Assembly (NCBI RefSeq): GCF_004138335.1 | Contig: NZ_RYFW01000009.1 | Span: 1-64,000, forward strand | Source: Peristeroidobacter agariperforans | Lineage (GTDB): Bacteria; Pseudomonadota; Gammaproteobacteria; Steroidobacterales; Steroidobacteraceae | DNA length: 64,000 nt | Direction: 5' to 3' | Program-made: the position numbers and the translations under genes | In this document: piece by piece, positions 4,565 through 36,976 of the stretch | How positions within the stretch are numbered: the first letter of the stretch is position 1 | Layout of the letters: each line of letters begins with the position of its first letter | The notes under the pieces: generated by a model | The model's input: only the letters and a program-made list of their open reading frames with translations | Told to the model about the DNA's origin: nothing | The model's database searches: none

Positions 4565-5659
<1,095 letters not shown>

Positions 5660-5682
5660 TTATCGAGCGTGGAGCCCGAGGA

Positions 5683-6051
5683 TCAAGCTGCTTGCTTCAG
5701 CAGACTGTCCCGAGCTTTTTGCGCGATGACTGCAAACGCCGCCGGATCGTTCATCGCGATGTCGGCCAGCACCTTGCGGTCGATCGACAGACCCGCGAGG
5801 TTCAAGCCAGCGATCAGCTTGCTGTAAGACAAGCCGTGAACGCGAGCTTCGGCGTTGATGCGCGTGATCCACAGAGCGCGGAAGTTGCGCTTGTTGGTCT
5901 TGCGATCGCGATACGCATACTGGCCGGCCTTGATGACGGCCTGCTTCGCGGCGCGGAAAACTTTGCGACGGGCGTTGTAGTAACCCTTCGCCTTCTTGAG
6001 GATCTTCTTGTGACGGGCGCCCGCAATGACGCCTCTTTTAACGCGTGCCAT
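5683..6051 (-). CDS. rplT: 50S ribosomal protein L20
   Basis: The 122-aa basic protein begins [20 protein letters not shown] and contains the family core [20 protein letters not shown] and the C-terminal domain [20 protein letters not shown]. Full length. L20 is an early 23S rRNA assembly protein, and in enterobacteria it represses translation of the rpmI-rplT message by binding the leader. It follows rpmI by 11 bp. Confidence 0.99.
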
Positions 6052-6062
6052 GACTTATCTCC

Positions 6063-6260
6063 TCACTTCGCGTTCGGGAGCAACTGCTCCATGCGGACCA
6101 GATCCTGCTTCGCGACCATCGAAGGCGCGCGCAGCTGACGCTTACGCTTGCTCGGCTTCTTGGTGAGGATGTGACGACGGTGCGATTGGGCTCGCTTGAA
6201 CCCTTTGGCAGTCTGGCGAAAACGCTTCGCCGCTGCCCGGTTGGTCTTCAACTTAGGCAT
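6063..6260 (-). CDS. rpmI: 50S ribosomal protein L35
   Basis: The 65-aa protein begins [20 protein letters not shown], the canonical L35 N-terminus, and has the Lys/Arg-rich [17 protein letters not shown] segment. An in-frame Met four codons upstream (6272) would add MRNA, which is not family-like, so I use the internal start. It lies between infC and rplT in the standard order, with a structured 139-bp leader. Confidence 0.97.
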
Positions 6261-6305
6261 TGCATTTCTCAACTACTTGTTAGCCTTTGAGGTACGCCTG
6301 TTATG

Positions 6306-6382
6306 GGCGCCCTGTCAGGCGGGACAGCGCCGACCTTTTATTGAGTCGTTGCTGTTCGCTTGTCGTGACCCCGAAGGGTCAC
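6306..6382 (-). promoter_or_regulatory. Structured infC-rpmI leader
   Basis: On the transcript strand the leader has GUGACCC-UUCG-GGGUCAC (6365-6382), a perfect 7-bp stem capped by the very stable C(UUCG)G tetraloop. A second stem pairs CTGTC (6312-6316) with GACAG (6323-6327) and may extend with GGCG/CGCC. In E. coli this gap carries the L20-binding translational operator of rpmI-rplT, so an autoregulatory role is plausible here, but the fold is not shown to be homologous. Confidence 0.45.
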
Positions 6383-6399
6383 TTGTGTTGTTCGACGAC

Positions 6400-6924
6400 C
6401 TACTTCTTCTTAGGTCCGAACATCATCACCATCTGCCGTCCTTCCATGAGCGGGTTCTGCTCGACCGTGGCGTAAGGCGCCAGATCGGCTTGGACTCGCC
6501 CAAGCAATTCACGGCCGACTTCCTGATGAGCCATTTCACGGCCACGGAACCGCATGGTTACCTTGGCCTTGTCGCCCTCCTCCAGGAAGCGGATCAGATT
6601 ACGCAGCTTGACCTGGTAATCGCCTTCCTCGGTGCCGGGGCGAAACTTCACTTCCTTGATCTGTATCTGCTTCTGCTTGCGCTTCGCTGCGTGGGCCTTC
6701 TTGTTCTGTTCGAACAAGTATTTGCCAAAGTCCATGATGCGGCAGACCGGCGGCTCCGCCGTCGGCGATACCTCAACCAGATCGAGTTCGGCGGCCTTGG
6801 CCATCTCCAGCGCGTCGAAGCGGCTCATGACGCCCGCCTGTTCGCCGGCAGCATCGATCACTCGCAACTGAGGCGACGTGATCTCTTCGTTGCGACGAAC
6901 GCGTTTTCCTATGGGAGCAGCGAT
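6400..6924 (-). CDS. infC: Translation initiation factor IF-3 (non-canonical ATC start)
   Basis: IF-3 binds the 30S subunit, blocks premature 50S joining and checks initiator tRNA pairing. The protein has both domains: the N-terminal half ([20 protein letters not shown]) and the C-terminal half ([20 protein letters not shown]...[16 protein letters not shown]). The conserved N-terminus continues upstream of any ATG, GTG or TTG start: [12 protein letters not shown] is encoded in frame back to an ATC codon at 6922-6924. A perfect GGAGGTA lies 6 bp before it. IF-3 genes commonly use rare AUU/AUC/AUA starts for autoregulation. This start gives 174 aa, against about 180 in E. coli. Starting at the downstream TTG (6867) would delete the conserved N-terminus. 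The gene begins 3 bp after thrS. Confidence 0.93.
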
Positions 6925-20514: not shown

Positions 20515-20703
20515 GTGAAAGACGTCATGACCAAGAAGTTGGTTCTGAATCGCGAAACGCTGAAGGTCCTGAGCCCTTCGGACGCCCGCCAGGTTCAGGG
20601 TGGACAGCCGCGGGAATTCAGTGTGCCGCCCGGTTGCTCCGATGGCGGCGGCAAGTACTGCACGATGACTTGCCCGCCCTATTCCACCGCCAGTGCCTGC
20701 TAA
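20515..20703 (+). CDS. Class I lanthipeptide precursor peptide (LanA)
   Basis: The 62-aa peptide has a leader typical of double-glycine class I lanthipeptides: TKKLVLNRETLKVLSPSDAR then QVQGG, with the KKLxLNxETLxxL motif and a GG site after residue 30. The predicted core has 32 residues with four Cys (41, 49, 53, 62), four Ser (36, 42, 57, 60) and three Thr (50, 52, 58), ending in Cys. Each Cys has a Ser or Thr a short distance before it. The start is GTG, with AAGGAG about 8 bp upstream; an ATG four codons later lacks a suitably spaced site. The adjacent LanB, LanC and C39 transporter make the call strong. Confidence 0.9.
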   Translation: MKDVMTKKLVLNRETLKVLSPSDARQVQGGQPREFSVPPGCSDGGGKYCTMTCPPYSTASAC

Positions 20704-20714
20704 CTGAAGTGACC

Positions 20715-20740
20715 CACGGGGAAGCACAAGCTTCCCCGTG
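20715..20740 (+). terminator. 11-bp hairpin between precursor and lanC (attenuator or processing site)
   Basis: CACGGGGAAGC (20715-20725), loop ACAA, GCTTCCCCGTG (20730-20740) form a perfect 11-bp stem 12 bp after the precursor stop and 15 bp before lanC. No U-run follows, so it is more likely a partial terminator or 3'-stabilising element that raises precursor over enzyme expression, as often seen in RiPP operons. Confidence 0.6.
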
Positions 20741-20754
20741 ACTCCGGCGCATAT

Positions 20755-22032
20755 ATGACCGAGACGATCGTGAACGAACATCTGCGCGCAGGGGCACGTG
20801 ACGCACTCCTCGACATCGTGCGGGCCCTGCCGCTGCCTGGACAAACCAAGAGTCCCGCGCTCGCGGGCGGCGAAGCGGGGTTGGCGATCTTTCACGCGTA
20901 CCTTGCGAAATCAGGTCTGTTGCCGCCCGAAACATCGCAGCGACACCTCGAGCTCACATTCGAGCATCTGCAATCGGCCGTGGCTGCCTTGCCCGCCCCG
21001 GCTTCGCGGCTGGACCTGTACTCGAGCTTCGTCGGTGTGGCCTGGGCGGCCAATCACGCGCATGCGATGGAGGTGCTGCCGGAGAGCGACGATCTGTGTG
21101 ACGCTGCCGATGAGGCAGTGCTCGAAGGGTTGCGCGAGCACGGCAGCTCGCTGCCTTGCGAGCTGATCTTCGGCCTGAGCGGCATCGGTGTCTATGGCCT
21201 GGCCCGTTGGCATCGTCCGGCGGGCCGACAGATCGTCGAATGCGTCGTACGCGCGCTGGAAGAAAGCGCCGTCCTGGATCGCGGACTGCGAACCTGGTTT
21301 CACTCCCCCGAACACCTCTCGGCCAATGGTTTGAAGGAAGCGCCCGAGGGTTACTTCAATCTGGGCCTGTCGCACGGTGTTCCTGGCGCCCTGGTGTTCC
21401 TTTCCAAAGCGGCTGGACACGGCGTGCCAGGGGCGCAGGCATTGCTGATCGAGGCGCGGCACTGGCTGCTTCTTCAACAGCGCGCCTTCAGCAACGGATC
21501 TCGCTTTGGTTTTTCCGTGCTGCCGGCGGCGGATCGGCAACCTGAGATCGAAGGCTCGAAGGTGGCGTGGTGCTATGGCGATCTCGGTGTGTGCGCAGCG
21601 CTCTTGCAGATTGCCCGACACGCACGGCGCACCGAGTGGGAGCCCGTCGCGCTCGATCTGGCTCGAGCGTTGGCGCATCGTCCCGCGCCCGACAGAGACG
21701 TCATGGATGCGGGCCTGTGTCACGGCGCCCTCGGCAATGCTCACATCTTCGCGAGACTTCATGCCGCAAGCGGCGAACGCTGCCTGCACGAGGCCGCACT
21801 TCGCTGGCTGCAGGCAGGACTTGCGATGCGCAAGGAAGGCGCGCCCGCTGCCGGGTTCCTCACGTGGTTCCCTCCGCAACCCGATGAGCCCACGCGAGAC
21901 CCCTGGATCCCCCGTTACGGCCTGTTGGAAGGCATCGGCGGCATCGGCCTTGCGCTGCTGGGATTTCTGACGCAGGTCCCGCCCGCCTGGGATGAATTCA
22001 TGATGGTCGACATTCCGGCAGCAGGAGGCTGA
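20755..22032 (+). CDS. Lanthionine synthetase C-like cyclase (LanC)
   Basis: The 425-aa protein is an alpha/alpha-toroid LanC, which catalyses Michael-type addition of precursor Cys thiols to dehydroalanine and dehydrobutyrine. The zinc ligands are visible: Cys273 in VAWCYGDLG, and Cys322 and His323 in GLCHGALGN. His207 in NLGLSHGVPG matches the acid/base His of NisC. The C-terminal YGLLEGIGGIGLALLGFL is the usual last GxxG repeat. Family-standard length. A weak ribosome-binding site lies after the hairpin, so it may be translated at lower level than the precursor. Confidence 0.93.
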   Translation: MTETIVNEHLRAGARDALLDIVRALPLPGQTKSPALAGGEAGLAIFHAYLAKSGLLPPETSQRHLELTFEHLQSAVAALPAPASRLDLYSSFVGVAWAANHAHAMEVLPESDDLCDAADEAVLEGLREHGSSLPCELIFGLSGIGVYGLARWHRPAGRQIVECVVRALEESAVLDRGLRTWFHSPEHLSANGLKEAPEGYFNLGLSHGVPGALVFLSKAAGHGVPGAQALLIEARHWLLLQQRAFSNGSRFGFSVLPAADRQPEIEGSKVAWCYGDLGVCAALLQIARHARRTEWEPVALDLARALAHRPAPDRDVMDAGLCHGALGNAHIFARLHAASGERCLHEAALRWLQAGLAMRKEGAPAAGFLTWFPPQPDEPTRDPWIPRYGLLEGIGGIGLALLGFLTQVPPAWDEFMMVDIPAAGG

Positions 22033-22035
22033 ATC

Positions 22036-25000
22036 ATGTCGAGCGATGCCTCGCCGTCGCCGCGCTATCGCGTGGCGGGTTTCTTCGGCCTCAGAACACC
22101 GCTGCTGGCCTTCACGGAATATCTGCACTGGGCGACCAATCTCGAGGCACCCCGAGCGCTCGATGCAGGCGAGCCTCTCGAGCCTGCGCTGCGCACCGAT
22201 CGGGAAACATTGCGCGGGCGGCTGCGTGCGTTGATCGCCCGCCCCGAGATTCGCGAGGCCCTGCTGCTCGCCTCGGCCTCCCTCGATCGAAGCCTCGCGC
22301 ACTGGCTCGAAGAGCCCGACAGCGAGCGTGGCCTTGCGGCGGAGCTCGTCCTCGTCCGTTACTTCCATCGCATGACGCATCGATGCACGCCGTTCGGACT
22401 CTTTGCCGGCCACGCGCTGGGTCGATTCGCGCCGCACACCTGCCTGCAGCTCGAGCCCGCTGAAAGGAGCTGGCGTCGCACGCGAATCGATCGTGGCCTG
22501 ACCAGCAAACTGGTGCACCACCTCGAGCAGTCGCGCGCACTGCGTGAGTCATCCACCGTGTATCCAAACACGAGCCTCTATCGAACGGCGGACCGCCTGC
22601 GATACGTTGAATACACCGTGGATGAGCATGGATCCCGAAACTACCGGCTGGTAGCCGTCACCGAAGATTCCTATCTGTTGAGCGTGCTGGCGCGTGCGAG
22701 CGTCGGCGCCACCATCGCGCAGCTCGCGACCGCGCTTGCCGCCGAAGCGGGCGTGAGCGTCGATGAGGCGAGCGCGTATATCCACGAGCTGATCGACGCC
22801 CAGATTCTGATTCTCGATCTGGAGCTGCCGATCACCGGGCCTGATGCGATCGGTGCCCTCGTCCATAGGCTCAAGGCTTCTGCAGAAACCCACGAGATCG
22901 GGCACATCGTTCAGGATGTTTTGTCCCGAATGCACGAGCTGGATCAGGCCGGCATCGGCAACTGCGCTTCGCGGTACGAAGCCATCACGCAGCAGGTGGC
23001 GAAGCTGCCGGTGCCGACCGCTCGTACGAGCCTGTGGCAGGTGGATCTCTTCAAAGCGGCCGATCGATTCGCGCTGGGCCCGCAGGTCGCGCGCGCACTC
23101 GAAGAATGCGTCTCACTGCTGCAGCGAATTGCCCCGCTGCCGGATCAGGATCCGTTGCATGCCTTCCGGGAGGCCTTTCGCAGGCGCTACGAGGAGCGCT
23201 GGGTGCCTCTGATGGAAGCGCTCGACCCCGAAACAGGTATTGGATTTCCCGTGGGCGCCCGCTCGGCAACCGATGATTTGTCTCTGCTTGCGGGGTTGGT
23301 CCTCAACACCGGTGCGAGCGAATCCGAGCCCCTGTGGAGCGCTCGGGACGCTTACATGATGCGCAGACTCGAAGCGCTGCGCGCGCAGAACATCCGCGAG
23401 TGGCGCTTGGAGGAGGCCGATCTTCAGGCGCTCGATTCCAAGGCGGGCGCGCAGACGCTCGCCGATTCCTACGATCTCATCGTACGGCTGATCGCCCCCT
23501 GCAATAGCGCAGCCGAGACCGACGACTTCAAAGTGCAGGTGCACGGCTGCTATAGCTCGGCAGGCCGAATGCTCGGGCGCTTCTGCTACGGCGACGATCA
23601 GCTGAGCGAGAAAACGCGCGAGCTGCTGCGCAAGGAAACGGAGGATCGACCGGATGTCATCTTCGCGGAGGTCGTGCACCTTCCGCAGGGACGCGCCGGC
23701 AACCTGATCGCAAGACCCGTGCTGCGCGAGCATGAGATCGTCTTTCTGGGTCGCTCCGGCGCCCAAGCCGAGCAGCAGATCAAGCTCTCGGATCTGATGG
23801 TGAGGCTGGTCGGGGATCGTCTCGTGTTGCACTCGATCGCTCACGGCAAAGAGGTCATTGCGCGCCAGACCACCGCCTTGAACTTCACGATTACCAATGC
23901 CGTCAGCCATTTTCTCGGCGCCCTGAGCCGACAAAACATTCGCGCCTCGCTGGGCTGGAACTGGGGCAGGTTGAGCCATGAGCCTTTTCTGCCCCGAGTG
24001 TCGAGCGCTCGCGCGATTCTGGCGCGCGCCGCCTGGAATCTGAAAGCAATCGATCTCGAGCCGATCCTCGGCGCTCGCGACGCCGAGCGGCTCCGCCGAG
24101 TGCAGGCGCTGCGGCAGGAGCGCGGGCTGCCCCGCTTCTGCCTGGTGATGGAAGTCGACAACGAGCTGCTGATCGATCTCGACAACATACTCAGCATCGA
24201 TTCGTTCTGCGATCTGGTGAAGAACAAACCGATCGTAACTCTCGAGGAATGCGTACCCGCTGTGGACGAGCTCGCTGTATATGGCCCAGAAGGCCGCTTT
24301 ACACATGAGCTCGTGGTGCCGCTGCTTAAAGAACACGCTGGGCCGCCGCCCCGCGCTGTCGCAGGCCCGCCACCCAAAAGCGCAATGCAGGTGACGGAGA
24401 ATTTCGCGGCAGGTTCCGAATGGCTGTTCTACAAGCTTTACGGTGGCGACGGCGCCGCTGACGGCGTGCTGACCGAAGCCATCGCATCCGTCGTTGCCGA
24501 ACTGCGTGACCGCGGCGTGATCGACAATTGGTTCTTCATCCGCTACGGCGATCCCGACACGCATTTACGAATACGGTTGCACGGCGACCCCGAGCGGCTG
24601 AACGCCGAGGCGTTGACCAGGATGCACGCCGTGTTGAGCCCGATGCTCACCAGCCGGCGCCTGTGGCGGCTGGAGCTTGCAACCTACGAGCGAGAAACAC
24701 ACCGATACGGCGGACCTGCGAGCATCGAGTGCGCCGAGCGCTTGTTCGGCCTCGACAGCGAGGCGGCACTTGCAATCATCGCCGCTTGCCAAGGTGATCA
24801 GGGCGCGACTTTCCGATGGCAGTTGGCACTGGCAGGCGTGGATCGCTGGCTGCGTGACTTCGGACTGGATCTCGAAGCCCGCCGAGTCTTCGCGCGCAAG
24901 GCTCGCGATGGATACAGCAGCGAGTTCAACGCGCAACACAAGGCGACACAGAAATGGTTCGCCGAAACCTTCCGCGCACAACGTAAGGCGATCGAACCGT

Positions 25001-25299
25001 TGATTGCCGAAGCTCCCGCGCCGGCCGAACCGGCAATCCTCGCCGGCTTACACGCTCTGGAACGACGCAGCCTGGGGGTGGCGCCGCTCATCTCACGCAT
25101 GCGCGACCTGCACGAGCGCGGCCTGCTGTCGACTTCACTCGAAAGCATCGCGCACAGCGTAATTCATATGTTCGTAAATCGGCTGATGCGCTCTTCACAG
25201 CGTCAGCAGGAACTCGTGATCTATGAGTTTCTGACCCGACTGTATGACTCCGAGTCGGCTCGACGCCGCGCGCCGGCACGCAGCTCGGTTCACGACTGA
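22036..25299 (+). CDS. Lantibiotic dehydratase (LanB), full length
   Basis: The 1087-aa protein has both parts of class I LanB. The N-terminal glutamylation domain carries RYFHRMTHRCTPFGLFAGHA, the conserved RxxxRxTPFGLFAG motif, at about residues 110-130. The C-terminal SpaB-type elimination domain starts near residue 790 (SEWLFYKLYGG, IDNWFFIRYGDPDTHLRIRL) and ends with HSVIHMFVNRLMRSSQRQQE. Such enzymes glutamylate Ser/Thr using Glu-tRNA and eliminate glutamate to give dehydro residues. AGGAGG lies about 8 bp before the ATG, 3 bp after lanC. It is a single polypeptide, unlike the split LanBs of some Bacteroidetes clusters. Confidence 0.94.
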   Translation: MSSDASPSPRYRVAGFFGLRTPLLAFTEYLHWATNLEAPRALDAGEPLEPALRTDRETLRGRLRALIARPEIREALLLASASLDRSLAHWLEEPDSERGLAAELVLVRYFHRMTHRCTPFGLFAGHALGRFAPHTCLQLEPAERSWRRTRIDRGLTSKLVHHLEQSRALRESSTVYPNTSLYRTADRLRYVEYTVDEHGSRNYRLVAVTEDSYLLSVLARASVGATIAQLATALAAEAGVSVDEASAYIHELIDAQILILDLELPITGPDAIGALVHRLKASAETHEIGHIVQDVLSRMHELDQAGIGNCASRYEAITQQVAKLPVPTARTSLWQVDLFKAADRFALGPQVARALEECVSLLQRIAPLPDQDPLHAFREAFRRRYEERWVPLMEALDPETGIGFPVGARSATDDLSLLAGLVLNTGASESEPLWSARDAYMMRRLEALRAQNIREWRLEEADLQALDSKAGAQTLADSYDLIVRLIAPCNSAAETDDFKVQVHGCYSSAGRMLGRFCYGDDQLSEKTRELLRKETEDRPDVIFAEVVHLPQGRAGNLIARPVLREHEIVFLGRSGAQAEQQIKLSDLMVRLVGDRLVLHSIAHGKEVIARQTTALNFTITNAVSHFLGALSRQNIRASLGWNWGRLSHEPFLPRVSSARAILARAAWNLKAIDLEPILGARDAERLRRVQALRQERGLPRFCLVMEVDNELLIDLDNILSIDSFCDLVKNKPIVTLEECVPAVDELAVYGPEGRFTHELVVPLLKEHAGPPPRAVAGPPPKSAMQVTENFAAGSEWLFYKLYGGDGAADGVLTEAIASVVAELRDRGVIDNWFFIRYGDPDTHLRIRLHGDPERLNAEALTRMHAVLSPMLTSRRLWRLELATYERETHRYGGPASIECAERLFGLDSEAALAIIAACQGDQGATFRWQLALAGVDRWLRDFGLDLEARRVFARKARDGYSSEFNAQHKATQKWFAETFRAQRKAIEPLIAEAPAPAEPAILAGLHALERRSLGVAPLISRMRDLHERGLLSTSLESIAHSVIHMFVNRLMRSSQRQQELVIYEFLTRLYDSESARRRAPARSSVHD

Positions 25300-25313
25300 G
25301 ACCACCCCCACCC

Positions 25314-25523
25314 ATGTCATCTCACCTGAATCGCGATCTCTTTCGCCAGCAAGCCATCGACTACCATTTCAACGAGCCGGAGAGCAGCGGCGTGACGAAC
25401 GCGCGACCTCGTTGGACCGGGCTCATGATCGCAGCTTTGCTGACGCTCGCCGCGGCGACGCTCGTGTACATCGTTGCAGCGGATGCCGTGGTCGATGTGC
25501 TCTTGGAGCGGTTGCTTCGATGA
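25314..25523 (+). CDS. 69-aa single-pass membrane protein, resembles a HlyD adaptor N-terminus
   Basis: The protein starts SSHLNRDLFRQQAIDYHFNE, has a Pro/Arg segment (NARPRWTG), one membrane helix (LMIAALLTLAAATLVYIVAA), and ends DVLLERLLR. The LFRxxAI start, short cytosolic arm and single helix match the first 60-70 residues of HlyD-type membrane fusion proteins of bacteriocin exporters, but the coiled-coil and barrel domains are absent. Its stop overlaps the ABC transporter start, and the gene sits where an adaptor gene would be expected. It may be a minimised adaptor, an immunity peptide, or an unrelated membrane protein. Confidence 0.6.
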   Translation: MSSHLNRDLFRQQAIDYHFNEPESSGVTNARPRWTGLMIAALLTLAAATLVYIVAADAVVDVLLERLLR

Positions 25524-27676
25524 TCGGCATGCGCCGGGGGCGACGAGAAGTTCCCTACATTGCGCAACTCGAGGCCCTCGAGTGTGGCGCAGCCTGTCTT
25601 GCGATGGTGCTTGCATATCACGGTCATCACGCGCCGCTACCTGAAGTGCGGGAAGCCTGCGGAGTCTCGCGCGACGGTGTCAACGCCCTCGCCATTCTGC
25701 GGGCCGCGGAGCGCTATGGATTGGAGGCGACGGCATACACCGTCAGCATCGAGCAGCTCCCTGCGGTGCCTCTGCCGGCCATCCTGCACTGGAACTTTCA
25801 TCATTTCGTCGTGCTGGAACGATTGCACGAGCGCGGCGGCGCCACGCTCGTCGATCCGGCCGGCGGTCGATGCACCGTCAGCGCCGAAACACTGGCCAGC
25901 TCGTTCACGGGTGCGATCCTGGCATTCTCGCCCACGCCCCGCTTGCAGCCGCGTCGGCCGAAGCAACCCAACCTCGGCCGCTATCGTGAATGGATCCGCG
26001 ACAATGTGAGATCGATCGGGTTGATCCTGTTGTGCTCGGTGCTGCTGGAGATGCTCGCGTTGGCGTTTCCGATCGGTCAGCAAATCCTGGTTGATCGCGC
26101 CCTTGGCTCGCACGACACGCACCTGTTGTGGAGGATTGCTGCTGCGCTCTTCGCGGCCACACTGGTCCGCTTCGCACTCGTCTTTGCACGGGGGTATGTG
26201 CTCAGCAACCTGCAGGCCATCCTGGATGTCGGCCTGCTCGGGAATTTCATGAAGCACGCCATCCGGCTGCCGATCGGTTTTTTTCTGCAGCGCTCGCCCG
26301 GCGATCTGCTGCAGAGACTGGAGAGCAATGGCAGGCTGCGAGCCTTTCTCGGCTCAGAGATCGTTACGTCGTTTCTCGACGTGTTGTTGATCCTCGGCTA
26401 CGCCGGACTGATGTTTGTTTACCACTGGCAACTGGCGCTGATCGTGGTTGGCATCGGGCTGCTGCGGGTCCTGCTACAGATCCTGCTGGGTGGGTTGAAT
26501 CGCAAGGTCAGCGCCGCCGAGCTCAGCGCACTGAGCCGTTCGGGTGGCGCGTTGGTCGCCTCCCTCGATGCCATTGAAACATTGCGGGCTGCGTCGGCCG
26601 AGTCCTTTGCCCTGCGCCGCTGGGGCGATGCCGTCGTGCAGCGGGCACGCACCAGTCTGCCTCGCATGGAACTGGAAAATATCAGTGCGCAGGCGACGAC
26701 GCTGCTGAGCGCTCTGGGCTTTGCGACCGTCGCCGCCGTGGCCAGCGCCGAACTGCTCGCCGGTCAGATGTCGCTTGGTGTGTTCTCCGCATTCCTGACG
26801 CTGCAGGCGCTGTTCCTGGAGCCGGTCGGGACGTTGATGAAAAACATCGAACAGCTGCATCATCTGCGTTCCCACCTTGCGCGCCTCGACGATGTGCTGG
26901 ACGCCCAACCCGAGCGCGGCGGACGCGCCACCGCCGCTCATCTGCGCGGCGAAATCCGCCTCGAAGGCGTGCGCTTCAGATATTCCGCCGCGGCCGAGTG
27001 GAGCGTGCAGGGAGTGAGCATTCACGTACGCGCCGGCGAGATGCTCGCCATCGTGGGCTCTTCCGGCTCGGGCAAGAGCACGCTGGCCCGCTTGCTCCTG
27101 GGCCTGCTGATGCCAGGTGCTGGCAGCGTGAAGTTCGACGGTCGGAATATTGGCGACTACGACCTCGATGAGCTGCGGCGGCGAATGGGCGCGGTCCTGC
27201 AGGAGAACGAGCTGCTGTCGACCACTATTTTAGAGAACATTGCGCTGAACGATCGCTCCGTGCCCGTGGCGAATGTGAAAAAGGCCGCTCGTCTTGCGTG
27301 CGTGGATCACGTGATCGACGCCCTGCCGCTCGGCTATGACACGCAGCTCGGTGAACGCGGAGTGCAGCTCTCGGGGGGCGAACGGCAGCGCCTGTGCCTT
27401 GCGCGCGCCATTGTGCATCGGCCCGCCGTGCTCGTGCTGGATGAAGCGACGAGCGCCCTGGATGTGGACACCGAAAGACGCGTTCACAGGAATCTGCGCG
27501 GCCTCGCCTGCACACGCGTCGTGATCGCGCACCGCCTTGCAACCGTACGCGATGCCGATCGCATCCTCGTCATGGATCGTGGACGTGTCGTCCAGCAAGG
27601 GACCTACGAATCGCTGCTCGGCGAAGCGGGTGTGTTCCGCGATCTGGTCGATGCAGGGGCCCTCCTGCATGCCTGA
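25520..27676 (+). CDS. Peptidase-containing ABC transporter (C39, LanT/PCAT type)
   Basis: The 718-aa protein has three parts. Residues 1-130 are a C39 bacteriocin-processing peptidase with oxyanion Gln16, catalytic Cys22 (ECGAACLAMV), His95 (FHHFVVLE) and Asp112 (VDPAGG). Residues about 150-430 form six membrane helices. The C-terminal ATPase has Walker A GSSGSGKST, signature LSGGERQRLCLARAI, Walker B AVLVLDEATSALD and H-loop VIAHRL. It should cleave the leader after the GG of the precursor and export the core. The ATG overlaps the upstream stop (ATGA); a longer open frame runs antisense-like through lanB and is not used. Confidence 0.94.
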   Translation: MIGMRRGRREVPYIAQLEALECGAACLAMVLAYHGHHAPLPEVREACGVSRDGVNALAILRAAERYGLEATAYTVSIEQLPAVPLPAILHWNFHHFVVLERLHERGGATLVDPAGGRCTVSAETLASSFTGAILAFSPTPRLQPRRPKQPNLGRYREWIRDNVRSIGLILLCSVLLEMLALAFPIGQQILVDRALGSHDTHLLWRIAAALFAATLVRFALVFARGYVLSNLQAILDVGLLGNFMKHAIRLPIGFFLQRSPGDLLQRLESNGRLRAFLGSEIVTSFLDVLLILGYAGLMFVYHWQLALIVVGIGLLRVLLQILLGGLNRKVSAAELSALSRSGGALVASLDAIETLRAASAESFALRRWGDAVVQRARTSLPRMELENISAQATTLLSALGFATVAAVASAELLAGQMSLGVFSAFLTLQALFLEPVGTLMKNIEQLHHLRSHLARLDDVLDAQPERGGRATAAHLRGEIRLEGVRFRYSAAAEWSVQGVSIHVRAGEMLAIVGSSGSGKSTLARLLLGLLMPGAGSVKFDGRNIGDYDLDELRRRMGAVLQENELLSTTILENIALNDRSVPVANVKKAARLACVDHVIDALPLGYDTQLGERGVQLSGGERQRLCLARAIVHRPAVLVLDEATSALDVDTERRVHRNLRGLACTRVVIAHRLATVRDADRILVMDRGRVVQQGTYESLLGEAGVFRDLVDAGALLHA

Positions 27677-29633
27677 GCGAACGTCGCTTCCCGGCCTCGA
27701 TGAGCAGCTGGCCACGCGACGGCTGCTCTGCAGGCTTCGCCTACCGCATGAGCCGGATGAACCCGAATCAGCGCTGAGCCTGCTTGCTCGCCTTGAACGT
27801 CAGGGCGTACACGGACGTCTCACACGGATCGCGAACGAGGATCTGCGTCAGCTCGATGGCCCTACTCTCATTCTGCTGAGGGACCGTCGCTGGCTATTGG
27901 TCACGACAGTCCGTCATGGACGAATCGTGGTCGAAGATTCGCACGGCCACGAGCAAACATTCTCGTTTCGAGCGGTGAGTGAGTCATTCGCAGGCATGGT
28001 ATTCGACAGGACGCCGCAGTTGCCGACCGGCGGCACCGTTCTGTCACGAATAGCGCGCCTGATGTGGCAGCACCGGCGAGCCCTGTATCCCGTGGTGGCG
28101 CTCGTCCTGCTATTGCAGGGTTTGAGCCTGCTCGGCCCGCAACTTACCCGGATGCTCGTCGACGACGCACTCCCGCAAGACTCCACGGAGTTAATCTATG
28201 GAATCCTGGCAGGCATGTTTCTCATTGCGTTGCTGCGCTCCGCGGCGAGCTGGCTGGAACAATGCATCGTGCAGCTCATGCAGGTCCACCTCGATGCCAG
28301 TCTCGAACGAGGACTGCTGGCGCATGTGCTGCGGCTGCCCTATCGCTTTCTGGAAGCAAAGTCGGTGGGACAGATCATCCAGGGATTCATGGGAATCACG
28401 CAGGCGCGCACTGCACTCACCGTGGATGTGCTCGGTATTGCGCTGGGCAGTCTCACCGGGCTTTGTTTGCTCGTCGCGATGTCCTTGATGATGCCCGTGC
28501 AGACGCTGCTCGTAGTCGCGGTCGGCGCTGCCTCATCGATCCTCGCCGTCGTGTTCGGCAGCCGGCAAGAAAGATTGCAGCGGCAAGTCGTTGACGCTTC
28601 GGTCCGCGAGCGCGAGAGCGCGTTGGAGATTCTCGGTCGGATCACGACGCTGAAGGCTGCCGGAGCTGCCGGTCGGGCGATGGAGCGCTGGCTCATTCTG
28701 TTACGACGCTCACGCGCTCTGATCCGACAGAACGAGCGGCTGACGCTCGCCTGTCAAGTGTCCATCGATGTGCTCGGACAGGTGCAGCTGCAGGCGCTGT
28801 GGATCTGGGGTGGCCTGCGTGTGCTCGCAGGCGCGCTGCAGCTCGGAGAGCTGATCGCGTTCACTGCGATGGCGACACTGTTTCACGCGGCCACGGGGCG
28901 CGTCGCGAGATCCTTCGTCAAGCTCCGCGAGTTGAAAGCGCAGGTGACTGAAACGGAGTGCCTCCTGGCGCAACAGCCGGTCGTGCCCACATACCGCCGC
29001 AGCGCGCGGCGCTCGACGCCTGACATCGAGGTACGAGATCTTTGGTTTCGCTACGGCGAAAATCGTCCTTGGGTTTTCGAGGGGCTGGATCTCGTCATTG
29101 CTGCGGGGGAGATTCATCACCTGCGTGGGCCCTCCGGGTTCGGCAAGTCGACGCTGCTGAAGCTCGTGGCCGGATTATATGAACCCTGCAAAGGAGAAAT
29201 CCTGATCGGCGGCCGGCCGCCGCAAGCGGCTCGAGACGACATGATCTTCGTTCCGCAGCACGTCCGCACATTCAATGCCAGCGTGCGCGAGAACCTGGTC
29301 TTGTTTTCCGGTGGAGCGCAGTTCGCTCAGCTGATGCGCTCGGCCGAACTCACGGGCCTGGCAAAGCATGTCCAAGAGCTGCCCATGGGCTATGAGACGT
29401 TGCTCGCGCATGGCGGCGCCAATTTCTCAGGGGGACAGCGACAGCTCATCGCGCTCACCGCGGCGCTCACTTCCGACAAACCCGTCCTGCTCCTCGATGA
29501 GGCGACAGCCAACCTCGACGCCTCCTCAGCGCGACGCCTTCTGGAAAGCCCGCTCTTCGAGGGACGAACCGTTGTGCATGCGGGTCACGACTTGCAACGG
29601 GTTCCGGCCAGCACATCGCGCGTCCGCGCCTGA
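27669..29633 (+). CDS. Second ABC transporter with degenerate C39-like domain
   Basis: The 654-aa protein overlaps the first transporter by 8 bp. Residues about 35-115 align with the C-terminal half of a C39 domain (LILLRDRRWLLVTT, VVEDSHGHEQTFSFR, SFAGMVFDRTPQLP), but the catalytic Cys segment is absent and the HFVV His is replaced. Six membrane helices follow at about 130-400. The ATPase has Walker A GPSGFGKST, signature FSGGQRQLIALTAAL, Walker B PVLLLDEATANLD and His in VVHAGHDLQ. It may form a heterodimer with the first transporter, bind leader without cutting, or provide self-protection (inference). Confidence 0.9.
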   Translation: MPERTSLPGLDEQLATRRLLCRLRLPHEPDEPESALSLLARLERQGVHGRLTRIANEDLRQLDGPTLILLRDRRWLLVTTVRHGRIVVEDSHGHEQTFSFRAVSESFAGMVFDRTPQLPTGGTVLSRIARLMWQHRRALYPVVALVLLLQGLSLLGPQLTRMLVDDALPQDSTELIYGILAGMFLIALLRSAASWLEQCIVQLMQVHLDASLERGLLAHVLRLPYRFLEAKSVGQIIQGFMGITQARTALTVDVLGIALGSLTGLCLLVAMSLMMPVQTLLVVAVGAASSILAVVFGSRQERLQRQVVDASVRERESALEILGRITTLKAAGAAGRAMERWLILLRRSRALIRQNERLTLACQVSIDVLGQVQLQALWIWGGLRVLAGALQLGELIAFTAMATLFHAATGRVARSFVKLRELKAQVTETECLLAQQPVVPTYRRSARRSTPDIEVRDLWFRYGENRPWVFEGLDLVIAAGEIHHLRGPSGFGKSTLLKLVAGLYEPCKGEILIGGRPPQAARDDMIFVPQHVRTFNASVRENLVLFSGGAQFAQLMRSAELTGLAKHVQELPMGYETLLAHGGANFSGGQRQLIALTAALTSDKPVLLLDEATANLDASSARRLLESPLFEGRTVVHAGHDLQRVPASTSRVRA

Positions 29634-35529: not shown

Positions 35530-35604
35530 TCCCCGGTAGCTCAGTGGTAGAGCGACGGACTGTTAATCCGTTGGTCGCTGGTTCGAGTCCGGCCCGGGGA
35601 GCCA
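35530..35604 (+). tRNA. tRNA-Asn (GTT), island integration site
   Basis: Acceptor TCCCCGG/CCGGGGA, D-arm GCTCAGTGGTAGAGC, anticodon stem CGGAC/TCCG with loop carrying GTT, T-arm GGTTCGAGTCC and encoded CCA form a complete cloverleaf. Its 3' end is duplicated at 43083-43101, marking it as the attachment site of the adjacent island. The left junction keeps the tRNA intact. Confidence 0.97.
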
Positions 35605-35607
35605 CCT
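35588..35607. repeat. Left attachment site (attL)
   Basis: TCCGGCCCGGGGAGCCACCT covers the T-arm/acceptor 3' end of tRNA-Asn plus 3 bp. The copy at 43083-43101 is identical but for one missing G. Confidence 0.8.
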
Positions 35608-35717
35608 CCTGATCCAAGGAGGTCCAAGGAAGGTCACCAAACGCTGCAAAGACCTATAAATCCAGCGTTTTCTGATCCGCCACATCTTCAGCGATCCGTT
35701 GACAGCGTACCATATTT

Positions 35718-35765
35718 GGGGGTACTGCTAGGGGTACCCATTACAGCGCTCGGAGTGGTACCCCC
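35718..35765. repeat. Integrase arm-type repeats, left end
   Basis: GGGGGTACTGCTAGGGGTAC (35718-35737) holds two direct copies of a (G)GGGGTAC unit, and GTACCCCC (35758-35765) is an inverted copy ending just before the integrase start. The same paired arrangement occurs at 43004-43023 near the right end. These are likely integrase arm-binding sites that could also let the integrase repress its own gene. Confidence 0.5.
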
Positions 35766-35767
35766 AG

Positions 35768-36976
35768 ATGCCGCCGCTGACAGATTCGGCGATTCGCAGC
35801 CTTAAACCGCCCGAAAAAGCCTGCAAGCTCTTCGACGGTGGCGGTCTATACCTGCTGGTGAAGCCAAATGGCGCTCGCCTTTGGCGAATGAAGTATCGCG
35901 TTGATGGGCGCGAGAAGCTCATCAGCTTCGGTCAGTACCCCGACGTTCCACTCAAGAGTGCGCGCGAGCGTCGCGACGAAGCGCGACGACTGATCGCCGC
36001 TCGCGTTGATCCGAGCGCAAAGCGCAAAGCTGAGCGCGCTGCTACGTCCGACACGTTCGAGGCGATCGCGCGCGAATACCTGGAGCTGAAGTCGAAGAAC
36101 CTCAGCGCGCGGACGTTTGCCAAGAAGCTTGGCCGTTTCGAGGCGTTCGCCTTCCCTTTCATCGGCAAGCTACCGATCACGTCGATTGCGGCACCGCAAT
36201 TGCTAGCGGCGCTGCGCAGGATTGAGGAACGCGGGAATCACGAGACGGCGCATCGAGTGCGCGCGGAATGCGGCGAAGTGTTCCGCTATGCCATCGCGAC
36301 CGGGCGCGCGGAGCGCGATCCGACCGGCGACTTACGTGGCGCGCTCGCGCCGGTCGTCGTTCGCAACCACGCCGCCATCACCGAACCGATGAAGATCGGC
36401 CAGCTGGTACGGGCCATTTACGGCTACCAAGGTCAGCCAGCGACGGAATACGCATTGAAGCTGTTGCCGCTCGTGTTCGTGCGTCCAGGTGAACTGCGGG
36501 CCGCTGAGTGGTCGGAGTTCGACTTGGAGACTGCCGAGTGGCGGATTCCGGGGAGTCGCATGAAGATGCGCGAGCCGCACATCGTGCCGCTCGCTCGCCA
36601 GGCTGTCGCCCTTCTCCGTGACTTGCAGCCGCTGACTGCCGCAGGTCGCTACCTTTTTCCGTCACTTCGGGGCGGCGACCGACCGATCAGCAACAACACC
36701 TTGAACGCCTCGTTACGTCGGCTCGGCTATACGGGCGATGAAATGGTGTCGCACGGATTTCGGTCGATGGCCTCAACATGTTTGAACGAACAAGGCTGGC
36801 ACCCGGATCTGATTGAACTTCAGTTGGCGCATGCCGAGCGCAACAAAGTTCGTGCAGCGTACAACCGTGCTACCCGCCTCGCCGAACGACGAAAGATGAT
36901 GCAGGCGTGGGCGGACTACCTCGACGCGCTGCGCACCGGTGCGGAAGTTATCGCCTTCCGACGGGCGACAAAATGA
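35768..36976 (+). CDS. int: P4-type tyrosine integrase
   Basis: The 402-aa recombinase has the DUF4102 arm-binding N-terminus (MPPLTDSAIRSLKPPEKACK, LFDGGGLYLLVKPNGARLWR, MKYRVDGREKLISFGQYPDV), a SAM-like core-binding domain, and the catalytic domain: Arg in VFVRPGELRAAEWSEFD, HxxR in VSHGFRSMAST, and Tyr in RAAYNRATRLAERRKMMQAW. It would integrate the island by site-specific recombination at the tRNA-Asn 3' end. It reads away from the tRNA and adjoins attL, the usual P4-like arrangement. Confidence 0.95.
   Translation: MPPLTDSAIRSLKPPEKACKLFDGGGLYLLVKPNGARLWRMKYRVDGREKLISFGQYPDVPLKSARERRDEARRLIAARVDPSAKRKAERAATSDTFEAIAREYLELKSKNLSARTFAKKLGRFEAFAFPFIGKLPITSIAAPQLLAALRRIEERGNHETAHRVRAECGEVFRYAIATGRAERDPTGDLRGALAPVVVRNHAAITEPMKIGQLVRAIYGYQGQPATEYALKLLPLVFVRPGELRAAEWSEFDLETAEWRIPGSRMKMREPHIVPLARQAVALLRDLQPLTAAGRYLFPSLRGGDRPISNNTLNASLRRLGYTGDEMVSHGFRSMASTCLNEQGWHPDLIELQLAHAERNKVRAAYNRATRLAERRKMMQAWADYLDALRTGAEVIAFRRATK

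Follow-up and report, generated by a model that had tools for sequence, protein, structure and literature searches.

A probable class I lanthipeptide operon of Peristeroidobacter agariperforans with an HlyD-type stub gene ahead of its C39 ABC exporter genes

Results

Gene content of the operon

The window analysed in this work is a stretch of 64,000 nucleotides from P. agariperforans (contig NZ_RYFW01000009.1, positions 1 to 64,000), and all coordinates refer to it. Open reading frames and family searches delimit an operon at 20515-29633 on the + strand, with the gene order lanA-lanC-lanB-stub gene-ABC1-ABC2 and the following features:

20515-20703, + strand: lanA, precursor of 62 aa, GTG start, leader ending in GG, core with 4 Cys and 7 Ser/Thr
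20715-20740, + strand: hairpin between lanA and lanC, perfect 11-bp stem, no T tail
20755-22032, + strand: lanC, cyclase, PF05147, zinc ligands C, C and H
22036-25299, + strand: lanB, full-length dehydratase with N and C domains, PF04738 and PF14028
25314-25523, + strand: HlyD stub, 69 aa, FRxEA-type box and one membrane helix, no periplasmic part
25520-27676, + strand: ABC1, C39 peptidase-containing ABC exporter subunit, catalytic Cys, His and Asp present
27669-29633, + strand: ABC2, a further ABC exporter subunit whose C39-like domain at the N-terminus lacks the catalytic Cys and His; Walker A, signature and Walker B motifs kept

The spacers measure 51 nt (lanA/lanC), 3 nt (lanC/lanB) and 14 nt (lanB/stub), and the last two junctions are overlaps. 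With no intergenic gap above 51 nt, the tight operon described in the original prediction is confirmed. The layout given there holds for the core families and was incomplete in two respects: the exporter comprises a second ABC subunit, and the place that HlyD has in the nearest syntenic cluster is occupied by a reduced form of it. The hairpin between lanA and lanC has a folding energy of -25.6 kcal/mol (z -5.15), which 0 of 200 shuffled sequences reached; it may be an mRNA-stability or attenuation element and could set the ratio of precursor to enzymes. To the right of the cluster, at 35530-36976, a tRNA-Asn gene is followed by a tyrosine integrase, a possible start of a genomic island.

LanC and LanB are as had been predicted, and the precursor is probably so. 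The lanA leader gave 21.2 bits (E 2.4e-4) with the class I leader model NF038153, just below its cut-off of 22. LanC scored 93.5 bits with PF05147 (LANC_like; cut-off 23.2) and carries the WCYG and CHG motifs. In LanB both the glutamylation domain (PF04738, Lant_dehydr_N, 505 bits) and the elimination domain (PF14028, Lant_dehydr_C, 230 bits) are present. LanB aligned to NisB with E 4.8e-23 (phmmer), and this alignment shows counterparts of R83, R87, T89, D121, R464, R784/786, R826 and H961, which we take to be the catalytic residues of NisB. Residues R112, R116, T118, D152 and R515 of the window LanB are invariant in all seven rows of the LanB alignment. The active-site residues that were compared, a point that the original prediction had singled out for checking, are all kept, both the NisB-type residues of LanB and the C, C and H ligands of LanC. 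In the genome itself (7.65 Mb in 17 contigs) the LanC, LanB and C39 families are each matched once. Gene content together with the LanB and LanC residues gives good support to the predicted class I cluster, and biosynthesis of a lanthipeptide of this class is likely.

Two exporter subunits

ABC1 matches PF03412 (Peptidase_C39) with 114 bits, in addition to ABC_membrane and ABC_tran, and in the alignment it retains the catalytic Cys, His and Asp of the C39 domain, as expected of a PCAT. ABC2 matches ABC_membrane and ABC_tran and has no match to PF03412; its N-terminal domain nevertheless aligns with C39 domains, and as the catalytic Cys and His are absent it does not qualify as a PCAT. The C39 peptidase transporter of the original prediction therefore stands with regard to the active site of ABC1, and must be corrected with regard to its composition, two ABC subunits instead of one. 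The pairing of an active with an inactive C39 domain suggests that ABC1 and ABC2 probably form a heterodimer.

A reduced HlyD-type gene

The absence of HlyD, which had been stated for this cluster, was not upheld. The 69-aa product of 25314-25523 is homologous to the N-terminus of HlyD-type adaptors: with an HMM built from 13 such N-termini it gave E 2.9e-5 at a modest 19 bits, and the next of 706 open reading frames of the window gave E 0.5. The HMM and the alignment agree on an N-terminal cytosolic box followed by a membrane helix. The periplasmic lipoyl/barrel-sandwich and barrel domains are missing from the stub, which has no Pfam match, and the periplasmic part of the adaptor of the nearest syntenic cluster, used as a tblastn query, found no convincing match in the window (best E 2.2). 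When the stub was used as a query in its own genome no other convincing N-terminus was found (next E 0.38).

The codon usage of the stub is that of a gene read in frame, and among 2000 fragments taken out of frame from the genes next to it none reached its GC3-GC2 value. Its stop codon overlaps the ABC1 start as ATGA, an arrangement also seen in locus L187. As the window stub lies below every Pfam and NCBIfam cut-off, and two other stubs match no NCBIfam model, genes of this kind are easily overlooked.

Relatives and origin of the cluster

With LanB as query, the only match among 200 genomes of the family was that of the window genome itself, and the same was true of 296 genomes of the order. 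Among 369 genomes of the class there were four: its own, one of 32% identity along the protein, and two with short C-terminal matches only, one of which lies inside an open frame of 1107 aa. The cluster is rare in the genomes sampled. The seven-row LanB alignment was also compared with genome contigs, and among the best 80 of at least 549 confirmed stretches the top ones are 40-43% identical and come from Planctomycetota, Acidobacteriota, Myxococcota and Paenibacillus. No relative of the exact window cluster was found among the family, order and class genomes or the best 80 LanB matches listed. The related clusters have core peptides that differ from that of the window, at a LanB identity of only about 40%.

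The nearest syntenic cluster, L019 (Acidobacteria, NC_groundwater_866), has the order lanC-lanB-HlyD-ABC1-ABC2. Its ABC1 is 46% identical to that of the window, and its ABC2 has the same dead C39-like domain as the window ABC2, at 36% identity. It differs from the window in that a full HlyD of 406 aa, matching Pfam HlyD_3 and HlyD_D23 (barrel-sandwich domains), lies between lanB and the C39-ABC gene, where the window has the stub. Motif searches of this locus found no precursor.

A 55-row LanB tree puts the window next to Acidobacteriota and Bacteroidota, at the end of a long branch, with a support of 85 and without a star. A donor lineage was sought in this tree and none could be pinpointed on account of the long window branch; the cluster looks acquired, from a source that the tree does not single out. 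In G485, which is of the same class as the window genome, the C39 transporter groups with that of Pseudoalteromonas.

Some of the other LanB loci have features of their own. A Cupriavidus plasmid (L004), whose record is not annotated, carries a full LanB in another Proteobacterium, and BLAST found no LanC relative there; on a Rhizobium plasmid (L006) a full lanB adjoins a cupin-like gene, and a protein annotated as belonging to the LanC family is encoded further upstream. In L183 (genome G1342) the LanC at 5164-6417 has D and Q at the positions expected for the zinc ligands C and H, and the adjacent precursor has a core with a single Cys, so that dehydration without ring formation may be all that its product undergoes.

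Stubs ahead of other C39 transporters

We surveyed the region upstream of 122 C39-ABC places, duplicates included, that had been picked by similarity to the window ABC1 or LanB, for which reason the counts are not to be read as frequencies. No HlyD N-terminus was detected in 64 places, a full-length adaptor was present in 35 (and 4 uncertain ones), a stub in 14 and a short adaptor in 5. Hence a C39 transporter is not always accompanied by an HlyD N-terminus. By the survey rule L024 and L032 are "none" and were judged short by eye (HMM E 9.2 and 0.42); L103, "short" by the rule, has 430 aa and was treated as full; and one Mycobacterium gene is present twice, as L032 ("short") and L136 ("none"). 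In five loci (L024, L032, L067, L175 and L178), from Actinomycetota or from genomes sampled under that phylum, the adaptor ahead of the C39 transporter is of intermediate length (145-184 aa).

Removal of duplicates left seven distinct stubs: those of the window, Paenibacillus solanacearum, three genomes of its order, Nonomuraea and genome G1154. The order lanC-lanA-lanB-stub-ABC was found in all three loci read (P. solanacearum and two genomes of its order), and the fourth locus of the Paenibacillus group, L186, has both stub and LanB. The stub locus of Nonomuraea showed no relative of LanB or LanC.

The order to which G1154 belongs had matches in 57 of 145 genomes. Among thirty loci that were retrieved, 11 carry a stub, whereas the adaptor of the other 19 is longer, with at least 314 aa by ORF length. 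The reading frame extends beyond the retrieved sequence for 4 of the longer adaptors and for one stub. The 11 stub loci come from 11 genomes, G1154 included, and their ABC proteins are 79-100% identical. The clusters are of class II, with a LanM-like protein conserved in all four loci compared; that of L217 scored 928 bits and is accompanied by a mersacidin-family precursor. The LanB of G1154 groups with Myxococcus (support 92 in the LanB tree), and this stub group probably consists of myxobacteria. The record of G1154 (locus L017) is titled Comamonas sp. KCTC 72670, an organism name that looks wrong for what is probably a myxobacterium.

Phylogeny and selection

The ABC1 tree comprises 94 rows, the 122 places having been reduced by 11 duplicates and by 17 places of Bacteroidota that lack HlyD. 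On this tree the stub label needs four changes, all four of them forced by starred branches. A second tree, computed under a mixture model from 37 rows (28 chosen from the 94 and 9 chosen from the 30 loci of the G1154 order), agrees with the first. The sister of the window ABC1 is that of L019, which has the full HlyD (100*), and the G1154-group stubs nest within successive starred branches of full-length adaptors. In these trees stubs thus precede C39 transporters on four separate branches: the window, the Paenibacillus group, Nonomuraea and the G1154 group.

Two alternative groupings were submitted to the AU test. A single clade of all stubs was rejected (p 3.4e-9), as was a clade of the window with the Paenibacillus group (p 1.5e-10), the latter grouping having been picked after the first tree had been seen. 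Truncation of a full adaptor is the simplest reading of how the stubs arose, the change counts themselves being unable to tell gain from loss.

All 11 stub pairs compared gave a dN/dS ratio under 1 (0.19-0.57); they come from genomes other than that of the window and are not all independent, as pairs share genomes. Three ABC1 pairs used as a yardstick gave 0.16-0.24, and a fourth such pair yielded no value. In the five stub pairs that were divided, the ratio was 0-0.26 for the cytosolic box against 0.54-0.89 for helix and tail. These ratios indicate that purifying selection acts on the stubs of genomes other than the window's and is weak in their helix and tail.

Discussion

Proposed role of the stub

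We propose that the window encodes a class I lanthipeptide pathway with a stub-assisted C39-ABC exporter. LanB would dehydrate Ser and Thr residues of the core, LanC would close thioether rings onto the Cys residues, and the C39 peptidase-ABC transporter would cut at the GG motif and export the peptide. The stub would derive from an HlyD adaptor of which only the cytosolic box and the membrane helix were kept, and would dock on the C39 domain and the transmembrane helices of ABC1/ABC2, thereby stabilising or activating the pump. Because the lipoyl, coiled-coil and barrel parts are absent, no TolC duct could be built from it; with this duct given up, the product would be released into the periplasm or take another outer-membrane route. 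On balance we lean slightly towards this account as a whole. Within it the docking and activating role of the stub is less likely than the lanthipeptide part, plausible but somewhat short of probable.

Work on hemolysin secretion offers a model for such a role. HlyD without its N-terminal 45 residues does not activate the HlyB ATPase, according to the accessible part of PMC4446572, a review which differs within itself on whether N-terminally deleted HlyD loses TolC recruitment or keeps the association with TolC and substrate. The structure of HlyB with HlyD, as given in the accessible part of PMC11026475, shows the N-terminal region of HlyD in contact with TM1/2 of HlyB, and acidic residues of HlyD in contact with basic residues of the HlyB C39-like domain. 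All this work concerns full-length adaptors only, and the role suggested for the stub is by likeness to them. A simple charge docking does not fit the stubs well: over the 22 residues from the box, basic residues outnumber acidic ones in 6 of the 8 stubs compared, the window having 3 acidic and 2 basic, and an acidic cluster is not evident.

Alternative explanations

It is possible, although we regard it as unlikely, that the window stub is a functionless, decaying remnant of an HlyD gene left by a deletion, and that the exporter works alone. The full HlyD of its nearest relative, the failure to find a second genome with the window cluster and the 64 of 122 C39-ABC places in which no HlyD N-terminus was detected upstream would all agree with such decay. 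An open frame with in-frame codon usage would not be expected of it, however, nor would the ATGA overlap with the ABC gene that recurs in L187, and the same type of truncation is under purifying selection in other genomes. A full-length adaptor encoded elsewhere might also supply the duct, either alone or mixed with stubs in the transporter. Large Gram-negative genomes usually encode many adaptors, and G1154 has both stub-type and full-adaptor C39 systems; but the window genome has one C39 family match and the search of that genome with the stub brought up no second convincing N-terminus, which makes a supply in trans fairly improbable.

We give little credence to the possibility that the stub has been recruited for immunity against the peptide, as a small membrane protein. 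Such proteins are common in lantibiotic clusters, and no immunity gene was recognised in this one, the Pfam comparison having covered the operon and seven genes of the window outside it. Selection is nevertheless concentrated in the cytosolic box that the stubs have in common with full HlyD and not in the helix and tail, stubs accompany class I as well as class II clusters, and all those found precede a C39-ABC gene, the search having been confined to such places. Equally hard to accept is an ordinary class I lanthipeptide cluster in which the small open reading frame is incidental: LanBC with a C39 LanT and GG precursors have indeed been published (PMC3951391 and PMC7268733, as far as their accessible parts go), whereas the homology of the stub, its recurrence and the tree tests all speak against mere coincidence.

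Significance

We return to the stub-assisted exporter as the preferred reading. The cytosolic N-terminus of HlyD-type adaptors has been studied, in the literature accessible for this work, in full-length proteins, where docking is hard to separate from the building of the duct. Stubs that occur naturally on four branches, under selection where it is measurable, do separate the two and make the question testable in harmless soil bacteria, and they bear on how Gram-negative bacteria release lanthipeptides. As a tentative generalisation, possible rather than probable, peptide exporters may repeatedly shed the adaptor duct and keep the N-terminal docking segment as a separate, tiny gating or activating subunit of the C39-ABC pump, in Gram-positive bacteria and, if the hosts are as they seem, on at least two occasions in outer-membrane lineages. 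If this is true, Gram-negative bacteria would have a route of lanthipeptide release that dispenses with the TolC duct, and the stubs would make up a new, autonomous class of subunit of ABC exporters.

Comparison with known systems

In HlyB/HlyD/TolC type I secretion and colicin V-type export, a C39 or C39-like ABC protein likewise adjoins an N-terminus of the HlyD family; unlike HlyD, the window stub has no lipoyl, coiled-coil or barrel part. The literature search, judged from listings and with subscription journals largely outside its scope, found no described stub of HlyD type. The two-subunit NHLP bacteriocin exporters (TIGR03796/03797) are the best NCBIfam matches of ABC1 and ABC2, with scores far under the equivalog cut-offs (627 of 853.3 bits for ABC1 with TIGR03796, 242 of 709.4 bits for ABC2 with TIGR03797), and the window exporter differs from them in lying beside lanthipeptide enzymes.

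The lantibiotic cluster MXAN_2853-2858 of Myxococcus xanthus DK 1622 is of class II (LanM), as opposed to the class I of the window. The accessible part of PMC3951391 lists in it MXAN_2854, a short hypothetical protein that has the length of a precursor without its features and is numbered next to LanT (MXAN_2853). From gene order alone, as it adjoins LanT, MXAN_2854 is probably another stub of the kind present in 11 genomes of the G1154 order, and was not recognised as such. In the same accessible part the term HlyD is absent, but a table has "HylD" beside two other LanT homologues.

LanBC with a C39 LanT and a GG precursor has been known since 2014, from two myxobacteria and one actinomycete (PMC3951391, accessible part), and GG-leader class I precursors were described in Bacteroidetes in 2020 (PMC7268733, accessible part). 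The salivaricin type and the clusters of Cystobacter fuscus, Corallococcus coralloides and M. tusciae, as they appear in the accessible part of PMC3951391, share with the window LanB, LanC, a double-glycine precursor and a bifunctional C39 transporter, and two of these class I clusters belong to Gram-negative myxobacteria. What the window has beyond what is reported of them is a second ABC subunit, whose C39-like domain is dead, and the 69-aa HlyD stub. The combination of LanBC, C39 LanT and GG precursor is therefore already known, and it is the second ABC subunit and the HlyD stub that set the window cluster apart.
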